This document shows positions 11,441 through 47,339 of a stretch of 64,000 bases of DNA, piece after piece. The notes beneath the pieces were generated by a model that worked only from the letters and a program-made list of their open reading frames with translations, was not told where the DNA came from and ran no database searches. Each line of letters begins with the position of its first letter. Position 1 is the stretch's first letter. A program made the translations under genes and the position numbers. The DNA is from Craspedostauros australis (lineage: Eukaryota > Bacillariophyta > Bacillariophyceae > Mastogloiales > Achnanthaceae), in the NCBI GenBank assembly GCA_026770025.1, contig JAMXDE010000043.1:539436-603435 (forward strand). Reading direction: 5' to 3'.

Positions 11441-11445
11441 AAAAA
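11441..11445 (-). terminator. Pol III terminator after the permuted tRNA
   Basis: A run of five T on the minus strand begins five nt after A37, the last base of the 5' half, and a T4 run follows one base later. A terminator here ends the transcript just after the second-placed 5' half, as expected if the permuted unit is the real transcription unit. Confidence 0.75.
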
Positions 11446-11467
11446 GAAGTCGTAGTCAGACGCCTTG

Positions 11468-11478
11468 CCGTTGGGCCA
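11468..11478 (-). promoter_or_regulatory. Pol III A box in the 5' half of the permuted tRNA
   Basis: TGGCCCAACGG (tRNA positions 8-19) fits the A-box consensus. Because the gene is permuted it lies downstream of the B box, the reverse of the normal order. Confidence 0.75.
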
Positions 11479-11501
11479 ACAGGTCTCCAGAAACCTGCCC
11501 G

Positions 11502-11512
11502 GGATTCGAACC
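11502..11512 (-). promoter_or_regulatory. Pol III B box in the 3' half of the permuted tRNA
   Basis: GGTTCGAATCC matches the B-box consensus GGTTCGANTCC exactly. It sits 5' of the A box, about 24 bases away in reversed order. Confidence 0.8.
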
Positions 11513-11680
11513 CGGAATCTTCTGATGTCAAGTTCTGCCAACATTGCATCAATCAATGTTTCTAATCTCTTGCCAAATATGTCCATAATTTCATTTGGTT
11601 GAATGTGTTGACGCCTGCAGTGGAAACATGGCAACGAGGTAACCACAGAATGTAAAGAACATCGAGCAGACGACGAGTAC

Positions 11681-20259: not shown

Positions 20260-20672
20260 TCGCAAGAATGCCAAAGGACCAGCTACGCGCAAGCAATCGG
20301 CTGAGTCCGAGGACTCAGGCAGGATAAAGAGAGTCCAGGAAAGAGGAGGAGTGTGAGACCAGCGGAGATGACGGACTATAGTCAAAGGTAACAAAAAACA
20401 GAGAGGAGGAAGACCGAAAAATTTGCCAGTACCAACACTATCAATACAACAACGACAACAACAACGACAACAACAGCAGCAACAACGGCGATAAAATAGC
20501 AACAAAGACAACGACAACAACGACAACAACAACAACGACGACGACTCGACGAAAACGGCGAATACGTTGACAATAAGGGGATACCTGCACAGCCAGGAAA
20601 CCTCGGCACAACAGTGCACAGATCGATGCTCGGAAGAGGAAGACGGCACCAAACGGAGCTGTGACCCACATC
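20260..20672. other. Inter-ORF spacer of the LINE with CAA-rich low complexity
   Basis: Contains a long run of (CAACAACGA)-like repeats at about 20,440-20,560. No gene seen. Confidence 0.6.
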
Positions 20673-23422
20673 ATGAGCACGCAGGTAGCCGGAGTTCCGG
20701 CAAACGAGGAGGAAGCAAGTAGACTAAACAATGCTTGCGGCGACGGGATGGAGTCGAAGACCAACGACGAAGTCAGGGTGGTGTTCCAGAACGTGGCACA
20801 GATCCCCATATACGCTTATCAACAAAAGAACGAGGAAATCATGGCCTTCATACAGCGATCAAGACTCGATGTGCTGGCGATGGCTGAAACGAACCTGAGA
20901 TGGAATCATGTGAGACCCAGCGATCAGTGGGAAGAAAGGGTGCGAGGGAAGGTGAAAAGGACCAAGCATATTTTCTCGTATAACACCCATGAGCAGGGTC
21001 GCGACCCGAGACTATACGGAGGAACAGGAATTGTGCTAACGGAACAGACGGCCGCGAGGGCGTTTCTTTTTGGAGTGGATGACAGCGGCATGGGGAGATG
21101 GTCTTGGTGCAAGATCGAAGGCAAGAGACACAAGTCAGTGAGAGTGGTGTCGGCATACCGGCTGTGCAAATCCACGGATGGAGACACCACAGTGTGGAAC
21201 CAGCAGCTGCGAGCGTTGAGCAATCAGGGAAGGCACGAAGACCCACACAAAGCCTGGATTACAGACCTACAAGACCAAGTGAGGAGATGGAAGGAGGATG
21301 GGGACTCGATAGTGATTGGTGTCGACCTTAACGAAGATACCGAGCACGGACCAACCGTACAGGCTCTACGAGCGGTGGGACTGAAGAATTCGGTAACCGA
21401 CCGCATGGGGGACGACGCGCGGTGTTCTACACAACAGCGAAGCCTGACCAACACGCCCATCGATGCAATTTATGTGTCGGACGGACTCGAAGTGATACGG
21501 GCAGGCTACATGGCGTTTGGGGAGGCCATCCCGTCTGATCATCGAGCTATCTGGATCGACCTCAGCTTCAGCCAGATTTTGGGAGCCGGGGTGCAACGAG
21601 TACAATCCGCCCAGCCCAGAAGGTTAGTCCTCAGTAACCCAAAGGTGGTACAAAAATACAACGACGCGGTACTCGCAGAGTACGGAAAGCACCGCATTCA
21701 CCAGAGGGCCACGACTCTTCTTAAAACAGCGAAGACACAAGGATGGGAACTCAATGGGTCCCAGCGGAAGGCTTATGATGGCCTGCTAACCCAGGTGTAC
21801 CAAATCCGGCGATGTGCAGAGAAGAGGAGTAGGAAGTTGACTATGGGGGAAGTCTCATGGTCCTCGGAAGTGCAGAGCGCTCGGGATTGGGTGAAGTACT
21901 GGACTATCGAAGTCAAGTATTGGAAAGGGGTAAAAACCAGCTCGTCATTGAGAAAGCGCTTGAGGGCCCAATCAGGATGTGAGGCGGCAGGATCACTGGA
22001 GGAGGCGACATCCGCACAGACGGAAGCGTACAAGGCCTACTACAGAGTTCGGAAACAGCACCGACAGGCCTGGCAAGACCATCTAGTGGATTTGGCCAGG
22101 CAACGGCACGAAAGTCACCAACAGGACTATGAGACGGCCATCAAAATGCTCATGAACCAGGAACGACAGCGAGAACAGGCGAGCAGACTCCGAGCAGTGT
22201 TTGGGAAAGGGAAAGCGATGACTACCAAGGTTCTCTTCACGGACGAGGAAGGAGTCGTTGACGAATGTACGGAAAAATGTGACGTAGTGGAAGCGTGTAT
22301 CGTGGAGAACAAGCGAAGGTTCTCGCAGGCACGCGACACCCTGTGTATGTCAGGCAGAGGGAAGCAAACGATGGACAAGATCTGGAATCCGGATACGGCG
22401 AATCAGCTGTTGTATGCTGCAGGGAATCTTGACAAGTTTGACGACCCACTGTGGCAGCATCTCATGCAGGCCCTGGAACCGGTGGAGTTCAGCCAAGACG
22501 AGCTCACGGTAGAAGAACATGTAAAGGCGTGGAGAAAGCAGACAGAGCTTACCAACTCTGAGCCGAGCAATCCGCATTTCGGGCACTTCAAGTCTGCGGC
22601 AGCCGACGCCACCCTCGCGGAGGTGGACATGGTCATGCGTGAGATACCGTATCAAACCGGTCACTCTCCAAAAGAATGGCAGCGAGTTACCGACGTGGAG
22701 ATATTGAAGAAAGCACACATATTCAACATCGAAAAAATGCGGACCATCCAGCTGATGGACGCGCAGTTTAATCTCAACAACAAGAGGTTGGGACGACAGA
22801 TGATGGCCATGGCGGAAGAACGGCAATGGATTTCAGATTTCCAGTTTGGAAGCAGAAAGGGTCGATCAGCGGTCAGTGCGGCACTCAACAAGCGAGTGAG
22901 CATTGATGTTGGGAAACAAAAGAAGGTCCCTATCTGGTTCTGCTCGAATGATGCGAAATCATGCTACAATTGCATTGCCCCAAATTTCGCGGCGACTGTG
23001 ATGATGGCGGCTGGGGCCAACCCCTCGGCTACGAGGTGCATGTTCCGCACGCTCCGAGATGCAAGGCATCGCATCAGCACCGCGTTTGGGGTGTCCAGGC
23101 AATCCTATGGCAGTGGATCCAATTGCTGCATGCATGGAATTGGACAAGGCAATGGAGCTGGGCCCGCGATTTGGGCGGTCATCAGTTCGGTTATGTTCAA
23201 GGCTATGGAGAGCAGAGGGCACAAACAGACGATGGCCTACCCAAGTGGTGATGGCTCCTTTGATATCCTTGGGTCGGCCTTTGTCGATGACACTGACCTG
23301 GTCTTGCTAGGAAGTGACGAAGTGACGTCGTCAGACTTCACGGACATGGTCCGGGACTGGAGCGAGCTGCTGAAGATCACCGGGGGCGCTATCGTTCCGG
23401 CTAAGTCCGCGTGGTGGTTGAT
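20673..23422 (+). pseudogene. LINE ORF2, first part: endonuclease and reverse transcriptase
   Basis: Starts at the first Met (MSTQVAGVPANEEEA). Residues ~30-300 form an exonuclease-endonuclease-phosphatase domain: VVFQNVAQIP, LAMAETNLRW (catalytic Glu), VIGVDLNEDTE (Asp/Asn) and IPSDHRAIWIDL (the Ser-Asp-His signature). A long helical linker follows, then a reverse transcriptase with FGSRKGRSA, WFCSNDAKSCYN (first catalytic Asp), GIGQGNGAGPAIW, and SAFVDDTDLVLLG (the F/YVDD active site). The frame is open to the copia insertion at 23,422. With one copy of the target duplication removed, it continues at 31,348 without a shift, so this gene was open here when the copia arrived. Confidence 0.88.
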
Positions 23423-24055
23423 TGTTGGAAGGCTCCGCGCACAGAGAATCGGTAGTAGTCAACACTCTTTCTCAAAGTGTTTCTGTTACTGTTATTGCTA
23501 TTGATTGTTGATGAGCGAGTGTGGGGAATGAGATGATCAAGATGCTCTCTTGATCCATCTCTTCTTTGCTCTCATTGCTTGGTGCAATCCTCTTGCACCT
23601 CCATGCACATTGCTCTCATGTTGCTCGTTGATGTTGACTTGATTGTCAACATTGTCGTCTCTCTGGTTTTGTTGAATCTGATGATTGGTCGAATCTGATG
23701 ATTGATCGAATCTGATGATTGATCGAATCTGATGATTGATCGAATCCGATGATTGATCGAATCTGATGATTGATCGAATCCGATGATTGATCGAATCTGA
23801 TGGAATGTTCAAAACATATTTCATTCCTGTAGGCCTGGTAGGTAAGGTCTTGATGTGACATCACGTGTGGTGGATACTGTGGTATCCGCTGGTATCGCGG
23901 TATCCTGGCGCCGTAGTATCGCAGTGTTCTCATGGTACAGCGATGGTATCGCTGTGACGTCATAGTTTTGTGTCGTGATTCCGCCACCAAATAGTCTAGA
24001 TGATGGCAAGCAAGTGTGACTGATGCATACACATCCGAGTACACACATTCCGACA
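23423..24055 (-). repeat. 3' LTR of the copia element
   Basis: Holds a tandem array (23,674-23,802) of a 17-bp unit like GAATCTGATGATTGATC, about 7.6 copies. It differs from the other LTR by a few substitutions and one extra unit. Confidence 0.93.
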
Positions 24056-24074: not shown

Positions 24075-27000
24075 TCATTCGCTGCTGTCGCCAGTGTATA
24101 GGTAGGTCTTCTCGTGCTCGCGCTGTAGCTCTGACTTGATGTTCTTCGTGAAGCCGTCGCTTCGATTGTTCTCTGACTTGACGAAGATGATTTCGATGAG
24201 CTTGTCATTCACCATGTTGCGGACGTAATGATGGCGTACGTCGATATGGCGAGAGCGTCGTGATGTTGAGGGATTCTTTGCAATGAAGATCGCTCCAACA
24301 TTGTCGACTCTCACAGTGATTGGAGTCTTCACTGGCACTCCCACACTCTCCAGGAGTTGCATCACAAAGAAGATCTCCTTCGCTGCTTCGGATAGCGCGA
24401 TGTACTCTGCCTCTGATGAACTGAGGGTCACTGCCTTCTGCGCCTTGGATCGCCAGAGGATAGGGACTTGACAGAGGTAGAGAATGAATCCGCCGACACT
24501 GATGCGAGTGTCCTTGTCTCCGGCGTATTCGCTGTCGCAGAACATCTCCATGTTCCATGGGCTGTTATCTGTCATGACAGGTTGAATCTTCAGGCCGTAG
24601 TGCTTCGTGTCGATGACGTATTTGATGATACGCCGCATCTCCTTGGTTGCAGCCTTGGTCGGTCCATCCAGTACCTTCGTCAGCTCTCTGACAGGATTGG
24701 CGATGTCGGGACGCGAATGCTTGATCAAGAATAGAAGCATTCCCACTCCCTTACGATAGTCAGCATGCTCTGCTGCGTCTACCTTCTGTAAACCGTTCTC
24801 TTCGGATGGGCGAACGATGCTCTGGCTTGGCGTCCCTGGCGTCGCGTAGCGCTGCATCTTCTCCACCTCTGCACCAAACTCGGTGATTAGGTTTCGGATC
24901 AGATGTGGCTGGCGTAGGACGGCTCTCGTCTTGTCTGCGTTGAGCTGGATGTTGCAGCTGAGGTAGTCACCCAAACCCTTCTCGATGGTGACCTTGAACT
25001 TGCTCTTCTGGATGTCGATCATGAATTGCTCGAGTGCCTTCTGGTGTCCGCAGCAGAAGCAGTCGTCGACGTAGATCGCCACGATGACTGTTTCGTTCTT
25101 CGTCTTGCGATGGAAGAGACACGGATCTGCCGCGCTCTGGTCGAACCGCATTCCCTTCAGCGTTGACACCAGCATCTTGTACCATTGGCGTGCGCTCTGG
25201 ACCAGCCCGTAGATTGGCTTGTGCAGCAGCAGTGCTTCATCCGGTGTGCTGTCCATTCCGCTTGGACAATTCATGTACACCTCTTCTTCGAGATCGCCGT
25301 ACAAGAATGCCGTGACGACGTCCACAAGTGCGCAGTCCATCTTCTGCAGCATCATGATCACCATCATCACACGGTACGTGACGTCGTGGATGACAGGCGA
25401 GTGGTGCTCTTGGTAGTCCACTCCTGCGATCTGCGAGTAGCCACACGCCACCAGACGCGCTCGATAGGTTCCATTGCGCTTTAGTTTAAACACCCATTTG
25501 CACTTGCAGCATCTGCGGTCTCTCGGAATGGATGAGCGCTTGATCTTGCTGTAGACGGATCGAGCATCCATCGAACTGAACTCTTTTGCGATGGCAGCTC
25601 TGTAGCCCTTCCGGTGTGTTGCATTCGGATGGTTGAATGCTTGATCGAAGGTTGATGGCTCGATGTGTGTCGATGTCTCTCCTGTCTCATCTTGGGTGGT
25701 TGCGCAGATCTCTGTCTCGAAATCGTCGGTACTGATTGCGTTGTTGCCGAATAGAGCATCTGTGACTGCGTTGGTGACGTCCGATGGAGGAGAATCGCTG
25801 TCTTCGTCGTCCGTGGCTTCGTCGTTCTCCTCATTCTCGTCGGTGGTGTCGTCATTGGTTTCGTCATCGTTGTTGGTCTCCTCGCTGCTGTGTTGATCGT
25901 GGTCTGTGTTGCTCTTGTCGTCGTTGGTGTCGCTTCCCCTATTGAAGACGGATAGGTTGGTAGTGAACCGCTTGCCTTCATGCTTCTCTTTCTTTCCTGG
26001 CTTGTTGTAGTTCGCAAGGTTGCGCAATTCGCTCTTTCCTTTCACGTTGGATGGCAGCGACGCACGCGACTTCGCATTCGTTTTTGCTTGATGCTTGCTT
26101 CGCTCGATGTATCGCTGTTGTCGTTCGCTGCGAGTGGTATCGCGCTTGCTTGGCCGTCGTGGGGGATCAGCAGTCGTGGTGCGACTAGCTTTCGAATCGT
26201 CGTTCGCTTCGTGCGAACGCTTGCGTGATGTTGGCGGAGTGCGGAGGATGCTTGGCGGGACACTCGGTGGGGCGACATCTTCAATGTCGGTCACTGTGTC
26301 GTCGTCGACAGGGATCGCGTCAACCTCTTCTTCGGACGCAGTCCCTTTGTCCATTGGTGTGGTCGCCGTCTCGCTCGCGAGACCTGGTGAGTCCTCCTTC
26401 GCACTCGTGTTGTTGTTGGTGTCGTCATCGTCCTCATCGTCGTCATCTGAGAGGACGTGGTAGGAGTTCGCGTCGGCGAATGACACAGAGCGCCGCTTTG
26501 GCTTGGTTCGAGCTGTGTGGGACGGCGCTGTCCCTTCCCTTCCGACCAGGATGAATCCGTCATCGTCGGTCTCCGTTGGGTGCTCGGCGTCGGTTGCGGC
26601 GATCTGACTCCCTTCCGGCTTCCCATCGTCCGTGCCGTAAGTCCAACCCTTGAAGTGCCCGTACGATCTGTTGAGCCACTTCACGTCTCTGGTGCAAACG
26701 ATGGACTTGGTGGATGGACGGTACATGTTGTAGACGCCGGATGCATGCTGTGGAGCATATCCGACGAACAACATCGCCTCGCCTCTGTTCTGGAGTTTCG
26801 CCGTCATGCCTCCATAGGCCGTCTTGACGACTCCGACTTCACCAAAGGTACGGAGTCCACTTGCATACTTCGGATCCTCTCCGAAGAATAGGCTGTGCGG
26901 CGACTTGGTCTGTCCCTTTGCCACAGTGATGTTGGCGACCGCGGTCGCGACGTTGGCTGCTGCAGCCCATAGACCATGTCTGTGCTCTTCGTTGAGCTGG

Positions 27001-30000
27001 GCGCCGTTCAGCATGGATCGCATCTTCGTGTACAAGTATGCAAACTTGCGCTCCACTCTGCCGTTCTGCTGTGGTGTGTTAGATGCCGTGTATTCGAATG
27101 TGACGTCGAATCCGGCCTCGAGCAGATGGACCTCGGATGCCTTGTTCTCTCCGCTGTTGTCGCCACGGAAGATGATTGGCTTGCCGTCCGTGTGTGCACG
27201 GATCTTCTGAAGGAATCGCTTCAGGAAGGCCGGTTGGTCACCCTTGTTGGTGAGGAAGATGCTCCAGCAGTAATCTGTGTGGTCGTCTACGATCAACACC
27301 CAGTACCGCTTGTTTCCGAAGCTCGTGTGCTTTGTGTAGCTGATGTCGATGAAGAATCGCTCGCATCGTCGCGATGCTCTTGCGATGGTCGCCTTCGGGA
27401 CGTTCTTCACTCGTGCGTTGGCGATGGCACAGTGCTTGCATGGCGGCATGGTGCCGACGATGTTCCATCCGTGGTGCAATGCAGTTCGTTGCATTGCTTC
27501 GAGTGGGGCGTGTCCCAACATGCGATGGAGTGTGGACGCGTTGATGCCCTTCGGTGGATCCGACGTGACGGCCGCAGCCGTGACGTCTGTGCGTGGCTTG
27601 ACTGCATGCATCTGCACGCCAGTCACGAAACCATTTCGCGTGCGGAACACTCGATCGAACACGATCTTGTTCCCGTTGCCGTTTGTGATGTCCATGATGA
27701 TACCATTGTTGCCGATCTGGTATCCATTCTCCAGCGCCTTGTTCGTTGAGAACAGATTCACCCACATTTTGGGTGCGAACTTCACGTCGTTCAGTCTGAT
27801 GGTGCGCTGTGTGTTATCGCGTTGCTTCACTCGGAGATAGATGGATCCCATCTTTGGTGAGTTGAGTTGTGTGTTGTCACCGACCTTCACGAAGGATTGG
27901 ATGTGGCGGACGTTGAACATCCCCTTGTCCGAATTCACAATGTGGCATGAGGCTCCACTGTCGGCGAGCCATGTGTGTTGATCGGGTGTGTCGGTGTGGT
28001 AGTTGGATGCACGAAAGCTCGTGCGATCCACAACCATGATTGCCAGCTCGTCGTCGTAGGAGGAATCGTCATCATCATCGGATGATTCGCTCGTGCTGCA
28101 ATCGCCCCAATCGATTGGAGGGCGTTGTTCTGCTTGCTGTGGCGGTTCCGGTCTTGCTTGTCGTGGTGGCTCAGGTCGCCTCTCCTGTGGTCGGTGGTGA
28201 AGGAGTGTCACCATGCATCCTCCGAGGACGAAGTGCCGCTCCATGATGCTCAGCGGTGGTTGGCGGTACTGTTCGAGGATCCTGTTGAGAATCATGCTGT
28301 TGGCCAGGATCTCCTCAATGGACAGAAGCTCTGCCCTGACAAACATTGTTGACACTCGTCCCACGAATGCCATCTGCACACGTCGATTGTTCGGGAACAG
28401 GTTGCAGGCCGCGTTGAGGATGGCGTTGCCGATCAGTTCGCGCTGTTTGATCTCGGCCGTGAAAGTTGGGTACGGCACAGTGTCATGCCTGCCGTGCGCT
28501 CCTCGTTGGTTGAAGAAGTCCGTGGGCCCAAAGCGTAGGCCGGTTGGGAGGATCACGTCTTCGTGGTTGTTGAAGACTCGTTGACCTTCTGGTCTGGGAG
28601 GACGGAATCTGTACCCGACGGCTGGTTGCCAGGTTGCGTCGCTGTCGTCATCTCCGTCGTCTTGAGCGATCTCTTCTTCGGCGGAGCCAGCGGCTGACGC
28701 CTCTTCGAAGAGATTGTCGTCCAGGAGCATGTCTTGCTCAATTGGGGGCTCCCCGGCTTCCTCCATGGCGAGGATATCGATATCCTCCTCGGGGTCTTCT
28801 TCTCGGTTGCCGTTGCTTGGCAAGTCGTGCGTGTTGAGGCAGTAATCGAAATCGAGATCAAAACGAGGCTCGTTGTCGAGCGTCACCTCGTGGATGATTG
28901 GTCCATCGTTGAGCCATTCTGGGATGCTCGTGTCGTCGTGGACCTCGTCTATTCCTGGATGGTGTTGGAAGGTATCAAAGAATAAATCATCGACGGCATA
29001 GGCGGTGTGAGTGTTCGTGGGTGTGTCGAGAGTGGTCATCACCATCTCGAATCTGTCATCGGTGCCGTCTTGTGCCGTGCTTCCTTGCTCTTCCTGTTTT
29101 CTCTTTTCGTTGAACTTTTTCTTCCTGCAGTCTGCCTCTCGATGTCCTGGGATGCCACAGTAATGGCACTTCCCACTGAAGCCGCTGCCTCGACCTCTTC
29201 CTCTGTTGCCGCGGTTGCCTTGATTGCCGCGCTGATCTCTTCGGTTGCCTCTGTTGTTGTAGCCTCCTCGTCGGCCATTGTTGGATTGATGGTTGTTGTT
29301 GTTGTCGGCCGCTTGCTTTCTGTCTGGACAATTCGCAGACCGATGGCCGTACTTTCCGCAGTTGTGGCAGTTGCCCTTGAATCCGCCTGTCGCAGCCATC
29401 GCCGCGTCGTCGCGCTTGCTGCCAGTATCCGCGAAGTCGTCCACGTACGCCTTTCCACCTTGGAGCTTGGAGTATCTGTAGTTCAGCACATTTCGGATGG
29501 CCTCGATTGTCACCTTCTCTGGACCCATCTGCAGTTGGTATTCGAAGTTGCTCACTTCGTCGTCGTAGTCCTTGCTGAGGCTGCTGAGCACTTGCATGAT
29601 CAGCTCTCTCTCACTGATCTCGTATTTCACCTCTTGGAGGCGAGCGCGGAGCAGCTCAAGCCGTGTGACGTAGATGTCGGGATCCGTATCCCTCGCCATG
29701 CGTTCCGTGTTGAACTGGCGCTTCAGCCGCAGCACCGTGGATGCATCGGTCGGCTGGTACTTCTCCTTCAGCATCTTCCATGCTGCCGCTGGGTTCCCCT
29801 CGGGGTGCTGCTCGTCGCAGCATTGGTTGATCAGCTGGATCGCCTGCTTTCCAGTTCCTTGCTCTGCATCCATCATCAGGATCAGATCGCTGAAGCAGTC
29901 CAGCGCCAGTTCGCGCGTCTCTTTGAGGGCCTCCCTCTTCTCTTCGTCGCTCTCTTTCTCGATGTCTCCTTTCGTCGGGATGGGCTTCTCTCCCATCATG

Positions 30001-30578
30001 ATGTCCTTGTATCGCTGCGTACGCGCGTACGCCTTGGCTTGCGATTCCCACGCATTGTAGTCTTCCTTCTTTCCGCTGAAGAGTGGGGCCTTGCGCCTCT
30101 TGTATGTGTCCTTTGTCATCTTCTTTCTCGTTGTTGCCTGCTTGCTTGTGTCTTGTGTGCCGCCTGTCGATTGGCTCTCTTCTCTCTCTTCTTCTCTCTC
30201 TGACTCTTCGTTGTCGTTCGACGCGAGGGGATCGATGCCGCTGTCTCTCTCTGACGCGCTACCCCTGCCTTCTGTCTCTTGTACTTCTGTCTTGTACGCT
30301 TCCACTTTGAACACTCGCTGTGATGGAGTCGATGTGGATGTCTCTGTTGATGCCAATGTCGGTCTTGGCTGGTCTCTCTGCCGCGTCTCTGCGCCGGCTC
30401 TTCGTGCAGCTTGCTCTGCTTCTGTCTCGATGATAGCTCCTTGCTGAGCTCTTGGTTGTTGGATGGGCGCACCCGCTCCTTCTCGCGTGAGGTTCAGAGT
30501 CTCGTCCTCGTCTCCCTCGGTCTCGTCCTCGATCACTGGTGTGAGAGGGAATGCAGTCTCCTCGGTTTCTTCGCTCAT
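24075..30578 (-). CDS. Copia gag-pol polyprotein
   Basis: Makes the capsid and enzymes for reverse transcription and integration. One open frame of 2167 residues. Order: acidic N-terminus; gag helices (~150-400); two CCHC knuckles, CHNCGKYGHRSANC (~403) and CHYCGIPGHREADC (~468); an unusually long acidic spacer (~500-860); aspartic protease with LADSGASCH (Asp873); the HRMLGH pre-integrase zinc motif (~1020); integrase core with FIDISY, FRGDNSGEN and QQNGRVERK giving the D-D-E triad; a second long Asp/Thr/Ser-rich spacer; reverse transcriptase with RARLVACGYSQ, DVVTAFLYGD and IYVDDCF (~1838); and RNase H with CDSEYAGD, SSSEAEYIAL and HIDVRHH. Order integrase-before-RT defines Ty1/copia. The start used is the first Met of the frame. 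All catalytic residues I can check are present, so it may be active. Confidence 0.95.
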   Translation of the reverse strand: MSEETEETAFPLTPVIEDETEGDEDETLNLTREGAGAPIQQPRAQQGAIIETEAEQAARRAGAETRQRDQPRPTLASTETSTSTPSQRVFKVEAYKTEVQETEGRGSASERDSGIDPLASNDNEESEREEEREESQSTGGTQDTSKQATTRKKMTKDTYKRRKAPLFSGKKEDYNAWESQAKAYARTQRYKDIMMGEKPIPTKGDIEKESDEEKREALKETRELALDCFSDLILMMDAEQGTGKQAIQLINQCCDEQHPEGNPAAAWKMLKEKYQPTDASTVLRLKRQFNTERMARDTDPDIYVTRLELLRARLQEVKYEISERELIMQVLSSLSKDYDDEVSNFEYQLQMGPEKVTIEAIRNVLNYRYSKLQGGKAYVDDFADTGSKRDDAAMAATGGFKGNCHNCGKYGHRSANCPDRKQAADNNNNHQSNNGRRGGYNNRGNRRDQRGNQGNRGNRGRGRGSGFSGKCHYCGIPGHREADCRKKKFNEKRKQEEQGSTAQDGTDDRFEMVMTTLDTPTNTHTAYAVDDLFFDTFQHHPGIDEVHDDTSIPEWLNDGPIIHEVTLDNEPRFDLDFDYCLNTHDLPSNGNREEDPEEDIDILAMEEAGEPPIEQDMLLDDNLFEEASAAGSAEEEIAQDDGDDDSDATWQPAVGYRFRPPRPEGQRVFNNHEDVILPTGLRFGPTDFFNQRGAHGRHDTVPYPTFTAEIKQRELIGNAILNAACNLFPNNRRVQMAFVGRVSTMFVRAELLSIEEILANSMILNRILEQYRQPPLSIMERHFVLGGCMVTLLHHRPQERRPEPPRQARPEPPQQAEQRPPIDWGDCSTSESSDDDDDSSYDDELAIMVVDRTSFRASNYHTDTPDQHTWLADSGASCHIVNSDKGMFNVRHIQSFVKVGDNTQLNSPKMGSIYLRVKQRDNTQRTIRLNDVKFAPKMWVNLFSTNKALENGYQIGNNGIIMDITNGNGNKIVFDRVFRTRNGFVTGVQMHAVKPRTDVTAAAVTSDPPKGINASTLHRMLGHAPLEAMQRTALHHGWNIVGTMPPCKHCAIANARVKNVPKATIARASRRCERFFIDISYTKHTSFGNKRYWVLIVDDHTDYCWSIFLTNKGDQPAFLKRFLQKIRAHTDGKPIIFRGDNSGENKASEVHLLEAGFDVTFEYTASNTPQQNGRVERKFAYLYTKMRSMLNGAQLNEEHRHGLWAAAANVATAVANITVAKGQTKSPHSLFFGEDPKYASGLRTFGEVGVVKTAYGGMTAKLQNRGEAMLFVGYAPQHASGVYNMYRPSTKSIVCTRDVKWLNRSYGHFKGWTYGTDDGKPEGSQIAATDAEHPTETDDDGFILVGREGTAPSHTARTKPKRRSVSFADANSYHVLSDDDDEDDDDTNNNTSAKEDSPGLASETATTPMDKGTASEEEVDAIPVDDDTVTDIEDVAPPSVPPSILRTPPTSRKRSHEANDDSKASRTTTADPPRRPSKRDTTRSERQQRYIERSKHQAKTNAKSRASLPSNVKGKSELRNLANYNKPGKKEKHEGKRFTTNLSVFNRGSDTNDDKSNTDHDQHSSEETNNDDETNDDTTDENEENDEATDDEDSDSPPSDVTNAVTDALFGNNAISTDDFETEICATTQDETGETSTHIEPSTFDQAFNHPNATHRKGYRAAIAKEFSSMDARSVYSKIKRSSIPRDRRCCKCKWVFKLKRNGTYRARLVACGYSQIAGVDYQEHHSPVIHDVTYRVMMVIMMLQKMDCALVDVVTAFLYGDLEEEVYMNCPSGMDSTPDEALLLHKPIYGLVQSARQWYKMLVSTLKGMRFDQSAADPCLFHRKTKNETVIVAIYVDDCFCCGHQKALEQFMIDIQKSKFKVTIEKGLGDYLSCNIQLNADKTRAVLRQPHLIRNLITEFGAEVEKMQRYATPGTPSQSIVRPSEENGLQKVDAAEHADYRKGVGMLLFLIKHSRPDIANPVRELTKVLDGPTKAATKEMRRIIKYVIDTKHYGLKIQPVMTDNSPWNMEMFCDSEYAGDKDTRISVGGFILYLCQVPILWRSKAQKAVTLSSSEAEYIALSEAAKEIFFVMQLLESVGVPVKTPITVRVDNVGAIFIAKNPSTSRRSRHIDVRHHYVRNMVNDKLIEIIFVKSENNRSDGFTKNIKSELQREHEKTYLYTGDSSE

Positions 30579-34939: not shown

Positions 34940-37900
34940 CCCTTCATGACCCAGGGCCTATAGTGAATCCAAATAGCAAAAAAATTTCACGGATTCTCCA
35001 TTTTGACGTCGACGTTTACGTGTAACATATCATTTTCTTCATACCTGAAGAAAGCTTGAGAGATGGGCGATCCAGCCATGTGTCGCTTTCGATGGGGTTG
35101 TTAGGATGCTTGTGTCGCAATCAGAGCCTGAACTACTCGTGAATCGTTTTTTGGCCAGCGGGACTGTCGCAAAAATTGATTCGGCGAGCCCGTCCCTCCC
35201 AATTTTGGTCTCTCCAACCCATTTTTGTCGTCACATCTCCCCTTCCCATCACATCATAAAATCAAAAGATCACAACATCACAACATCACATCATCACATC
35301 ACCACACTGATCATCCATCATGGTCAAGTTCACCCGTGCCAAGCGCAAGGAGCCACCTTCCACACCAACCAGCAGCCAGCCGTCCTTCTTCGCAGAGCCT
35401 GATCTCCCCTACACCAGCTCTCGTCCGCATGTGGTTTTCCTCAACGATTCTCCAAAGTTGAATTGGTCTCCTCCATGCAAATGGCTGCCTCTGGATTCAA
35501 CCACCCTCAGGGGCCTCGACGACAACCCGCCAACAACCAATCATTCATCAACCACCATGCACACCAATGGCAAGAGCAGCATCATCGTTCCACCTGCGGT
35601 GGATGGCAAAATCGATGCCAGCATCATCATTCCACCTGCAGTGGATCGCAAAATTGATGCCGGCATCGTCACACTACCTGCAGTGGATGGAACGAGCATC
35701 GTCAGCAATCCATCTGGCATTGCTGGGCGCATGGCCACACGCATGTCAACGCGTATGGCCACACAGATGGACACGGCATCCAATCAGAGCAACACTGCAT
35801 GCATCAAAACTGATGCCAGCCCATCGAATGAAACCATCACAACTGACTTTGCAATCACAGCTGACCCATCTGAAGGAAGCATTGGGAACCAGGAAAGCAT
35901 CGGCACCCGTGCAACAGTTGATGGCAGTCAGTACACCATCAACATGAACGGCAACCATCGAAGCAACTACACACCACTCCCTGTGGGCAATCACAAGCCC
36001 AAGTTCCGTGGACTACCAAATATTGCCACCACAATCGAGAGCATCTTGGAAATCTTCTTCCCTGAGACTCTTGTGGAGAGAATCCAGCTTCACACCAACC
36101 ATCATATTCGAAACAGTCGATCCAAGGCTGAACTGGTGACAGTATGTGAACTGTACATATTCCTTGCAATGTACTTCTACATGGGCTTCTTCGGCGCCCC
36201 TGCAAAGAGGGACTACTGGAGAGCTGCTTCCATTTCCGTTCCTTCTCACGAGCTCATGACATACATGACAAGATCACGATACCAAGTCATTTGGAATCAC
36301 ATCCATCTCACTGCAATGGCTGAACACTCGGATGGCCAGTCAGATTCTTCAATTGACAGCAGCGATACATCTGCAGACGATATGGATGATGATGTCTCTC
36401 CAACAGATCAGAGCCGCGGCACCAGATCATCATCGCAGACGGCCACAACTTCTGGAACGTCAGCTGATGCGTCAACATCTTCATCAACGCTATCCGACCT
36501 CTCTGACAATGTTGCCCCACATGGGTCCGAGAGCAGAGCAGCCTGCAAACCTGCACCACCACCACCTTCGATACCCCCTGTGATCATTTCCGATCGCTCA
36601 TGGTATGCCAAGGTCCAACTTCTGCTGGACCATACCAACTGGGTCTCTCAGAAGGTGTGCACAAAGCCAGGGTTTGCCTGCTCCATTGACGAGATGATGG
36701 TACGCTTCAAAGGCCGATCAAGCCAAACCCATCGCATGAAGCAAAAGCCCATCAAAGAAGGATACAAGTTCTTCGCGCTGTGCTGCTCTGCATCTGGGTT
36801 CATGTACCATATACTTCCTGCTGGAAGACTGGATAAGACAACGAAGATCAACAACACAGTGCAAGAGTTGATGTCTGTTCTTGATCCAAATTTGGGGCAC
36901 GTCGTGGCGATGGATAATCTTTTCACAACAAAGACTGTGATTGAGAACTCCAGGAGAATGGGGCTGGGAATTGTTGGCACTGCTCGGAATCGTCGTGGCT
37001 TCCCTCCGAAGGAGATGAAAGATATTGAGGATGGACGCTTCAATTCGCTGTATCTGTGGACACAATCTGATGATCATGTCATCACAAGATGGGTCGACAA
37101 CAATGTTGTCTTGATGGTCAGCACCATCCACTACGGAAATGAGACAGTGCAGAAGGATCGCCACAAGCCAAGGGAGACCCAGACGAACAAGTCTCACCTC
37201 AAACAAGTGTGGGGGAGCAATTGGAACGCGAGGATTCACATACCGAAGATGATTGACGACTACAATCACTGGATGGGAGGCGTGGACAAGTGCGATCAGT
37301 TCATCGCCTACTACAGACCGAATCTCCGATGCCGACGAGTGTGGATGCCCCTGATGTTTCACCTGCTGGACATCCTGAGGGTGAATGCCTGGATCGCCCA
37401 CAACATGCTGGTCGAAAAGGAGCATCAATTGGAGCACAAGGCATTTGGTTTGCAGATGATTGAACGGCTTGTTGCGAAAGGTGTCATGTATGAATCGAGG
37501 TTAACAAGGGCAAGGGCACAGGCAACCACACCATCAATCCCAGTGCCAAGATCGATCCGAACAGCATCGAGAATGAGCAGAAAGTCACCAAGGCTGAGTT
37601 TGAAGAGACTGACAGGAGAGTATCGCGACCACAAGGAGCTCATCGTAAGAGAAGGGTGCCAGCGGACCTGCACATACTGTGCGTTCTTGAAGGCGAAAGC
37701 AAAGAAAGACGGAAAGGCAGGGGTGAAACCGAAAAGAGTGAGAAGGATGTGCAACATCTGTGATGTCTACATCTGCAAGCAACACTGGGCTACATACCAT
37801 GGTCAGGATGAGGGCTGACGATTTTTTTTTACTAGTAAAACCGTGTGAATAAGAAGAATGGTTCCGAACTAGATTAAAAAAGAAAGCTTTCTGTCGTAGC

Positions 37901-45119: not shown

Positions 45120-46196
45120 TTAGTACTCGACCTGGAACATTGGGTACCCATTTTGCATTTCGAGCTGCGTGAGAACAGCAACTGCGTAGAAATAGTACTG
45201 ATGCTTCTCAAAGTCATGTCCGCGGAAAACGTTGCTCAGGACCTTGAATTTTTTCAGTCGCCCATTGACGGCCTCGTGGCGCGCCCGGACAACACTCTTT
45301 GCTCGCAATTCCGCCACTGAGCCAGCATCATCGGGGGTTCTGATGTGTCCGCTTTCTCCTCTGTAACCGCGATCCGCCTCCACAAGTTCGCCAGGAGCAA
45401 GGCGCTGTTTCATTTTCTTGCGAAAGATGACGATGTCACTGACAGATGCCTTGTAAGGCCCATGGATCCACACGATCTCCCCGGTTTGAATCGCAACTCC
45501 GACCTCGTATTTTAACCCTGGACCGTTAAACTTCTCGGAGTACCAGGACTTGTCAAACGGCTTCTGCTCGTAGATGCGCAGATCAGTACCATCAACAGAA
45601 ACCAAACACGATCTCCCTTTAGTGTTTTTGAAGCGATCTCCCCAACAAATCTGCCCGTTGAAAAATGGAGAATAGAGCAATGACAGACAACGGTCGTGGA
45701 ACTTGCATGTGAGAATTGCTGTGTGTGTGGCACACATGGTGAATGACATTGTCGTGCGAGGTGCTCTTCTCTGCCAGTACCAACGGTTCCGCGGAATCCC
45801 CACAGGACTAGTACGAGTAGAGTACACACAGAAGCGTGTCATCTGCACAGTAGCACTTACGATTTGGGTTTTGACCAATGCGATTGCTTTCACAACAGGG
45901 AAAACGTGATTGCGCACCGTTCTGTCAGTCACCTTGAGCTCGCTCGCGAGGTCCTCTTCTGTCATGTACTTCCGCATGAAACGCAGTGCCCACAACAAGT
46001 ACTTGGGGTGATTTGATTTTGGGGGTGGTGTCCACATACCCCAAAGAATGGAGCATATTGAGGGGCAACAACCAAAACGACGACGAAACACTGCTCGAAG
46101 CTCATCAACCTGCTTCGTTTGCAGTGCGTAGCGCTCATCAAACATGTTCAACGACAACTTGATGAAGTCCATCTCGACGCCTGTGAATCCCTTCAT
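45120..46196 (-). CDS. Harbinger/IS5-like DDE transposase, two exons
   Basis: Exon 1 (46,196-45,861) and exon 2 (45,650-45,120) join across a 210-nt intron (donor GTAAGT, acceptor GGGCAG) to 288 residues. Exon 1 has a helix-turn-helix (MTEEDLASELKVTDRTVRNHV, near 85-105). Exon 2 holds the DDE_Tnp_4 core: SCLVSVDGTDLRI (Asp132), ELVEADRGYRGE (Asp205) and RARHEAVNGRLKKF (Glu238), with SEKFNGPGLKYEV between, as in IS5/Harbinger enzymes. The intron has no stop and is a multiple of three, but its translation is unlike the family, so splicing is expected. The start MKGFTGVEMDF was chosen because upstream frame has no Met near it. All catalytic acids are present. Confidence 0.87.
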   Translation of the reverse strand: MKGFTGVEMDFIKLSLNMFDERYALQTKQVDELRAVFRRRFGCCPSICSILWGMWTPPPKSNHPKYLLWALRFMRKYMTEEDLASELKVTDRTVRNHVFPVVKAIALVKTQIVSATVQMTRFCVYSTRTSPVGIPRNRWYWQRRAPRTTMSFTMCATHTAILTCKFHDRCLSLLYSPFFNGQICWGDRFKNTKGRSCLVSVDGTDLRIYEQKPFDKSWYSEKFNGPGLKYEVGVAIQTGEIVWIHGPYKASVSDIVIFRKKMKQRLAPGELVEADRGYRGESGHIRTPDDAGSVAELRAKSVVRARHEAVNGRLKKFKVLSNVFRGHDFEKHQYYFYAVAVLTQLEMQNGYPMFQVEY

Positions 46197-47339
46197 GCTG
46201 ATGGCTTGTTGCAATGGATTGGTTGTTGTTGCTTTCGTGGTTGCTTCGTGTTGGCGCAGGTGCGTCGCTTGTGCGAGTTTCAGCAGAAAAGGTGGTGAGT
46301 TGTCGGCATGCTGGCTCGGCCCTCCCCCCTTCTGTTGCGCGTCCACTTCCGCCGCAAAAAACACCACACTCGCGCCGCGAGACAAACAACACGGTGATCA
46401 TTGTACGGTGACAGTTTCTCGCTGCCAACAGTCGGGGAATGCCAGTCAGGGCAGAATGACGGTTCGTTGTTGCTCGTTTCTCCACCAAATTCGTGGGACG
46501 TTCCAGATCCCACCAAGAGGAACCCATCGCGGTGGATTTTTTCGCCACAGAACAAGCCAGACGATTGTCGCACAAAATGGAACATCTTCGACATTCTCCG
46601 ACGACGTTGGCACACGTTCGAACATGTTGGAACATTTTTGACCTTTTTGGAACTCGTGAATGGATATTCCAGTCGTGTCGTGTGTTGCAATTTTCAGGGC
46701 TACGTACAAAAGTACTGCAGCACTCGTAGAGATGGTGATTCGATGAGCAGGCGTCAGTCGGCTTTTCCGGATGACGTCATCTCCGCACATTTTTGAACAT
46801 GTTGGAACATTCCCGAACTCTTTGTCACACCTCAGCTAAATCACGAACGTAGCGGAACATCACCGCCAATGCTCGCCACAAAATGAGAGCGGTCCCACAA
46901 AAACGGCTGAAAACAAAAACAAACTGATGATGATGGGCATCCCACCCCACACCTCCACTGATTGCTATCTTCATGCTGCATGATAAACACATCTAATAGT
47001 AACCTACTATTGTAAACATCAATGAATAAAATGAATGTTACAGCCGTTTTAGTTGCAAGGCTTTGTAGCGATGTTCGTTGGTTGACCATGACTGTCTTGA
47101 TCTGCCTCAAGTTGTGGTGCTCGTCGCTGTGTTTGAGTTGGTTGGGGCTGGTCTTTGCTGTTTGTTTGTGTAGGAACAGTACTGCACAAGTGTGGAGTTG
47201 TTGTTGATGATGATGATGATGTTGTTGTTGTTGTTGTTGTTGATGATGATGATGTTGCTGTGCGGTTGTTCGTGGTGGTGTCACTGCTGCTGTCGTTGTT
47301 GTCGTTTTTGCGGCTCATCCTCACAACAACCTCACAACA
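46197..47339. promoter_or_regulatory. Divergent intergenic region of the Harbinger-like element
   Basis: Contains repeated short motifs of the form GAACATGTTGGAACATTTTTGAAC around 46,610-46,645 and 46,785-46,815, possible binding sites for the partner protein. Next to the plus gene lies a GTT/GAT microsatellite (about 47,205-47,262). Confidence 0.5.

Follow-up and report, generated by a model that had tools for sequence, protein, structure and literature searches.

A dispersed family of probable circularly permuted tRNA-Arg(ACG) genes in a diatom nuclear genome

Described permuted tRNA genes and the layout of the diatom locus

Circularly permuted tRNA genes have been described from several algae and from an archaeon (PMC3978253). 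The survey of Soma (2014) covers 34 permuted genes from six algae and one archaeon, with no Arg(ACG) gene and no diatom among them (PMC3978253), and later cases come from the nucleomorph of Amorphochlora (PMC4494063) and from Auxenochlorella (PMC12636532).

The locus reported here occupies positions 11450-11526 on the minus strand of the window, that is, of the whole 64-kb stretch of DNA that was analyzed, which lies within contig C41 of an assembly of 74.8 Mb in 90 contigs. It reads as a type II tRNA-Arg(ACG) gene permuted at 37/38, in which a 36-nt 3' half is followed by a 5-nt linker and a 36-nt 5' half (Table 1). The original prediction had placed it at exactly these coordinates with the halves in this order on the transcribed strand, and the split at 37/38 and the linker of five nucleotides that it proposed were read directly at the junction and at 11486-11490. 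It had described a single locus, however, and the gene is in fact one of five copies.

Among described permuted genes, the type II genes of the prasinophytes Ostreococcus and Micromonas and of the Bigelowiella natans nucleomorph share the 37/38 junction, mostly without an intron (PMC3978253). The Ser(AGA) and Ser(CGA) genes of B. natans have a 5-nt linker, as short as that of the diatom, and an AT-rich region lies upstream of some of these genes, as it does here (PMC3978253). In contrast, the tRNA species permuted in those genomes are Ser, Leu, Cys, iMet, Asn, and Arg(TCT) rather than Arg(ACG); nearly all of them are listed once per genome (Ser(CGA) of O. tauri twice, the type being different), whereas the diatom has five copies; and the genomes belong to the green lineage, unlike the 75-Mb transposon-bearing genome of the diatom (PMC3978253). 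Cyanidioschyzon merolae has in common with the diatom the order of the halves, an upstream TATA-like element, and a downstream T stretch (Soma 2007, 2013, via PMC3978253), and a circular intermediate of the kind expected in the diatom has been detected there (PMC3978253). In C. merolae 11 genes are permuted, with four junction types and some introns, and two of them encode the same tRNA, Gly CCC, whereas a single tRNA species is known to be permuted in the diatom, at the standard 37/38 junction only (PMC3978253). Thermofilum pendens likewise combines permuted order with very short linkers, of 1 and 7 nt (Chan 2011, via PMC3978253), but it is an archaeon, with the junction at 59/60 and with introns (PMC3978253). 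In the green alga Auxenochlorella UTEX 250-A, permuted genes were likewise found after a normal tRNA scan had proved incomplete (PMC12636532).

No permuted tRNA gene from a diatom appeared among the literature matches listed, which cover papers outside subscription and these in part. Since the kind has already been described in algae and an archaeon and no diatom case was found, permuted tRNA genes as such are known, and what looks new is the diatom lineage, the five-copy family, and its apparent role as sole supply; the expectation of a new or little-studied lineage holds within the literature searched. The diatom adds a lineage, together with a family in which leaders, linkers, and trailers can be compared inside one genome.

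To score the permuted order independently, 11 nuclear tRNAs of this genome, none of them Arg(ACG), were permuted in silico at 37/38 and used to build a covariance model (R2). Over the 64-kb window and at E up to 10, R2 returned a single match, to 11450-11526 on the minus strand at full length, with 61 bits and an E-value of 7.4e-16; the E-values of the search tool are rough, and the margin is large. Conventional-order scans of the window gave no gene, either with ARAGORN or with Rfam at gathering scores, as expected for a permuted gene, and neither offered a better tRNA in normal order, the outcome that would have counted against the prediction. ARAGORN run without introns found nothing in any of the five permuted loci; run with introns, it read one copy (L002) as a tRNA-Trp interrupted by a 638-nt intron, a reading we take as spurious, and found nothing over the other four. 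Since the conventional scans used here overlook such genes, the tRNA sets of other diatoms may be incomplete in the same way.

Joined at 37/38, the halves give 72 nt with a predicted fold that has a 7-bp acceptor stem, 5-bp anticodon and T stems, and the anticodon ACG. U8, A14, G18G19, A21, and the TTCGAAT T loop were read directly, and all are present, as are the stem lengths that had been claimed. The description of each half as canonical throughout stands for the positions tested and needs correction at two others, since the D stem has 3 bp and the discriminator is U73. This U73 occurs in all five permuted genes and is unusual against the A73 of the nuclear Arg(TCG) and Arg(TCT) genes of the same genome. 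The acceptor stem contains two wobbles, G1-U72 and U7-G66. In the minimum-energy fold the D arm is a non-standard hairpin, pairing 10-12 with 17-19; the sequence also permits the standard 3-bp D stem (10-12 with 23-25), and it is this stem that R2 aligns, with 13-22 marked as non-standard. Despite the atypical U73 and this D arm, the joined halves form a canonical tRNA with the conserved elements.

Table 1. Features of the window, with positions counted from its first base
Feature	Position	Strand	Remark
Probable promoter region, AT-rich, at -21 to -70	11547..11596	-	AT peak at -40 to -31 across the five permuted genes
Leader base G(-3), counted from A38 and proposed to pair with C32 (anticodon-intron pair)	11529..11529	-	Sole invariant column among 100 leader positions in five copies
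3' half, nt 38-73, transcribed first	11491..11526	-	Same sequence in 5/5 copies
B box, inside 3' half	11502-11512	-	
Linker CTGGA, 5 nt, between U73 and G1	11486..11490	-	Removal by tRNase Z and RNase P expected
5' half, nt 1-37	11450..11485	-	Same sequence in 5/5 copies
A box, inside 5' half	about 11468-11478	-	
Anticodon ACG, inside 5' half	11451-11453	-	
T5 run, probable RNA polymerase III terminator	11441..11445	-	T run of at least 4 begins 3-7 nt past A37 in 5/5 copies
Transposon protein regions	20661-23504	+	
Transposon protein regions	24075-30578	-	
Transposon protein regions	35320-37818	+	
Transposon protein regions	45120-46385	-	

Five dispersed copies and the supply of tRNA-Arg(ACG)

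The permuted sequence matches at least four further places in the assembly, on contigs C33, C14, C3, and C43, which gives five known loci on five contigs. At each of them the 3' half lies upstream of the 5' half, the arrangement that defines type II genes, in which the intervening acceptor-end sequence measures 1-74 nt in known cases. The linkers (CTGGA, GTGAT, CTGGT, CTCGGT, and GCGGAA; 5, 5, 5, 6, and 6 nt) differ in sequence, and the 60-nt flanks are unrelated, at 22-43% identity from copy to copy. Both 36-nt halves, by contrast, are 100% identical in 10 of 10 pairwise comparisons (72/72 bases). That the 72 tRNA bases stay identical next to wholly different leaders, linkers, and trailers suggests selection acting on the product, although a recent gene conversion confined to the tRNA parts may be the cause instead. 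The permuted order is borne out by the independent covariance model and by its recurrence at the four further loci, and it is backed as well by a terminator and by a G at -3 in all five copies. Taken together, the sequence evidence makes it very probable that the locus is a functional nuclear gene for tRNA-Arg(ACG), circularly permuted as type II, and that it belongs to a family of five dispersed copies.

CGU and CGC codons need tRNA-Arg(ACG), in which A34 becomes inosine. In the genes counted, CGT and CGC make up 46 of the 98 Arg codons in four genes of the window and 24 of 30 in HSP90. The assembly was searched for a conventional tRNA-Arg(ACG), as the original prediction had proposed, and none was found by any of three routes. 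An RF00005 search of the genome, in which the best 63 candidates were scored, gave 28 tRNAs on contigs taken as organellar (C83, C89, and C90) and 35 nuclear ones; among these 35 there was no Arg(ACG), the nuclear Arg genes being two Arg(TCG) and one Arg(TCT). The mature 72-mer in conventional order, searched against the genome at E up to 1, matched only as separate halves, 10 in number, each of which lies in one of the five permuted loci. When an ACG anticodon arm was sought as one contiguous pattern, with at most 2 mismatches, the genome had 11 hits; 5 of them keep U33 and ACG, and none of these five is a tRNA by ARAGORN. One arm hit, TCTGACTCCGATTCAGA at C16, was ruled out as a conventional Arg(ACG), being a repeat with no tRNA by ARAGORN. 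As no contiguous Arg(ACG) was found, the five permuted genes probably supply the reader of CGU/CGC codons.

Divergent or unassembled conventional tRNA-Arg(ACG) genes might nevertheless coexist with real permuted genes, so that the permuted family would be a supplement. Since RF00005 scored the best candidates only and the arm pattern allowed up to 2 mismatches, a divergent conventional gene could be missed. Against this, the mature sequence has, at E up to 1, no match outside the five permuted loci, and the five U33-ACG arm hits are not tRNAs; we regard such coexistence as unlikely. A more far-reaching reading, which we hold to be likely, is that this diatom obtains its whole supply of the CGU/CGC tRNA from permuted genes that form a dispersed and multiplying family, by way of an obligatory circular RNA. 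A genome that is large, bears transposons, and belongs to a secondary red-plastid lineage would then depend for an essential and heavily used tRNA on genes that multiply as units and are held in place by the endonuclease's requirement for a C32:G(-3) pair. If this is true, permuted tRNA genes can spread as units, and the case speaks against two ideas, that they are a feature of reduced genomes and that they guard against mobile elements. Should there be no other Arg(ACG) genes, CGU/CGC would be expected to go unread once the circular route is blocked.

A second possibility is that the loci are out of use, being pseudogenes or what survives of a tandem tRNA-Arg array after loss of the outer halves. 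Conventional arrays do present the halves in this order at their junctions: a gapped Arg(ACG) pattern searched in GTDB genomes matched 11 records, all bacterial, of which 9 contain three complete tRNA-Arg(ACG) genes; in the other 2, a 3' half precedes one complete gene. Scored with R2 over 56 loci, the five permuted loci reached 56-61.7 bits and the best per bacterial record 45.8-60.7 bits, with 41.6 bits for an adjacent organellar tRNA pair and at most 32.5 bits for conventional nuclear genes. Because the bacterial tandem records score near the permuted loci, R2 alone cannot separate a permuted gene from a tandem junction, and it is the flanks that do so. Within about 1.5 kb of all five loci there is no extra 5' half upstream, no 3' half downstream, and no complete tRNA gene beside the junction of the kind a conventional array would have. 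Moreover, 72/72 bases, the terminator, and G(-3) are kept at five loci with unrelated flanks, and no other Arg(ACG) gene was found (RF00005 best 63, 72-mer, and arm pattern). Decayed remnants are thus very improbable, and tandem duplication is a likely historical origin of the permuted gene. The two bacterial records with a single complete gene, L070 (2648-2729) and L075 (236-317), are from Bacteroidia, and in each a fragment resembling the 3' half of tRNA-Arg immediately precedes the one complete tRNA-Arg(ACG); the other nine are three-gene sets. Two gapped permuted-Arg patterns had no match in IMG/VR.

It is still less probable that the stretch encodes a tRNA-like regulatory RNA of, for example, the YrlA kind (Y RNA-like, RF02553), whose body resembles a permuted tRNA and has T-arm-like, acceptor-like, and D-arm-like hairpins in the same order. 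YrlA gave the best E-value for the stretch in a permissive Rfam scan (20.5 bits, E 0.05), far from the gathering score of 69 that marks membership, and such an RNA would not account for a complete tRNA with anticodon ACG and splice geometry in five identical copies, in a genome in which no other CGU/CGC reader was found. An assembly or chimera artifact can practically be dismissed, since one read-derived locus could in principle be misjoined but five contigs share the junction with different linkers and flanks, so that the error would need to recur fivefold; the assembly error considered in the original prediction is therefore very unlikely.

Transcription, splice junction, and proposed maturation

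To compare transcription signals, the AT fraction was taken in ten-base bins upstream of A38 in the five permuted genes and upstream of nucleotide 1 in the 35 conventional nuclear tRNA genes. Both sets peak in the same bin, -40 to -31, at 0.88 and 0.70, respectively. This common peak suggests that transcription most likely begins before the 3' half, using the usual upstream signal of tRNA genes. The AT-rich element upstream and the T stretch downstream, with no T run in any linker, correspond to the pattern of type II genes. As in other permuted genes, the internal B box comes before the A box (PMC3978253). A TFIIIC B-block domain (PF04182) had no match in the genome, in a search by exon fragments that is a weak test.

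Across the five copies, a single one of the 100 positions before A38 is invariant, G(-3). Chance alone would give about 0.8 invariant column per 100 leader positions, counting any base, so the existence of one such column alone proves little. The chance of an invariant base at the predicted position with the identity that pairs with C32 is about 2.5e-4, given the composition of the leaders. In the structure of human TSEN with pre-tRNA-Arg, the anticodon-intron stem begins with C32:G50 and is followed by a 3-base bulge, C51-A52-A53, at the 3' splice site (PMC10539383). C32 and G(-3) of the diatom share this geometry, with A38 as the last base of the bulge. Because the geometry matches that of the human TSEN substrate, the leader resembles an intron's 3' end, and G(-3), as proposed partner in the anticodon-intron pair, is likely to reflect a splicing constraint on the leader. 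The C32:G(-3) pair is possible in 5/5 copies; folding of leader, gene, and trailer together gave no bulge-helix-bulge at the junction that was consistent over the five copies.

The genome encodes the catalytic domain of the tRNA splicing endonuclease (tRNA_int_endo, PF01974), with a match above the cutoff at C12:988390 (43.7 bits). A second match at C14:1262852 has 25.2 bits, below the cutoff of 27, and the region of the catalytic Y and H motifs was recognized by eye in both translations. The N-terminal domain of Sen54 (PF12928) had no match in this genome, and no control genome matched either. For the ligase, the RtcB type (PF01139) had 0 matches in this genome and matched in 9 of 14 control genomes, and the Trl1 type (PF09511) had 0 matches in this genome and likewise 0 in the control genomes.

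On the model of other permuted genes, RNA polymerase III would start upstream of the 3' half, at an AT-rich element of the same kind as in normal tRNA genes, and stop in the T run past the 5' half. In the resulting precursor, the leader would stand for the 3' end of an intron and the trailer for its 5' end. Cleavage at 37/38 would fall to the tRNA splicing endonuclease, for which the mature body and the C32:G(-3) pair would serve as guides, and a ligase would join A37 to A38 to form a circle. RNase P and tRNase Z would then remove the 5-6-nt linker, and after CCA addition and conversion of A34 to inosine the product could be charged and would read CGU/CGC (and CGA). We infer this course, from transcription through cutting, circle formation, ligation, and linker removal to charging, by analogy with the known systems.

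Host genome and its other tRNAs

The organism is very probably a diatom, in agreement with the original prediction, which is backed by a plastid psbV and by the silicic acid transporter family. The best solved-structure matches of psbV are 8iwh, 6jlu, 6j3y, and 7vd5, which we take to be diatom photosystem II, and the genome combines a red-lineage plastid with diatom-like proteins and silicic acid transporters. The transporter family (PF03842) has 88 matches in the genome, allelic contigs being counted together; 32 of them lie above 760 bits, 28 of these 32 without an internal stop, and L081 (C11:710408-712021) is an example. Silicic acid transporters are usually few in diatoms, and the family looks like a large expansion. 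The transposon proteins of the window (Table 1) comprise a reverse transcriptase with an endonuclease domain, a copia-type polyprotein in an open frame of 2167 codons, a DDE_Tnp_1_7 transposase, and a DDE_Tnp_4 transposase.

Other tRNAs were sought with ten plant-type probes. Phe (5 places), Asp (6), Gly(GCC) (5), and Leu (2) were found contiguous; Glu, Val, Pro, Cys, Gln, and initiator Met had no match in this genome at E up to 1. A pattern for the initiator-Met-type anticodon arm with up to 1 mismatch had 5 hits, three with a broken stem. ARAGORN finds no tRNA in the exact hit (C9) or in the one whose stem is paired (C26). With this probe and pattern, no initiator tRNA-Met gene was located in either order, and the gene may be divergent, disrupted, or permuted. 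Permuted initiator tRNA-Met genes are described from C. merolae, Micromonas, and T. pendens (PMC3978253). Among the organellar contigs, C83 (79,752 bases) encodes mitochondrial-type proteins recognized by eye as cytochrome b, cox3, and nad-like. C89 has the same 13 tRNA matches as C83 at shifted positions and is therefore probably a second copy or a rotated form of it.
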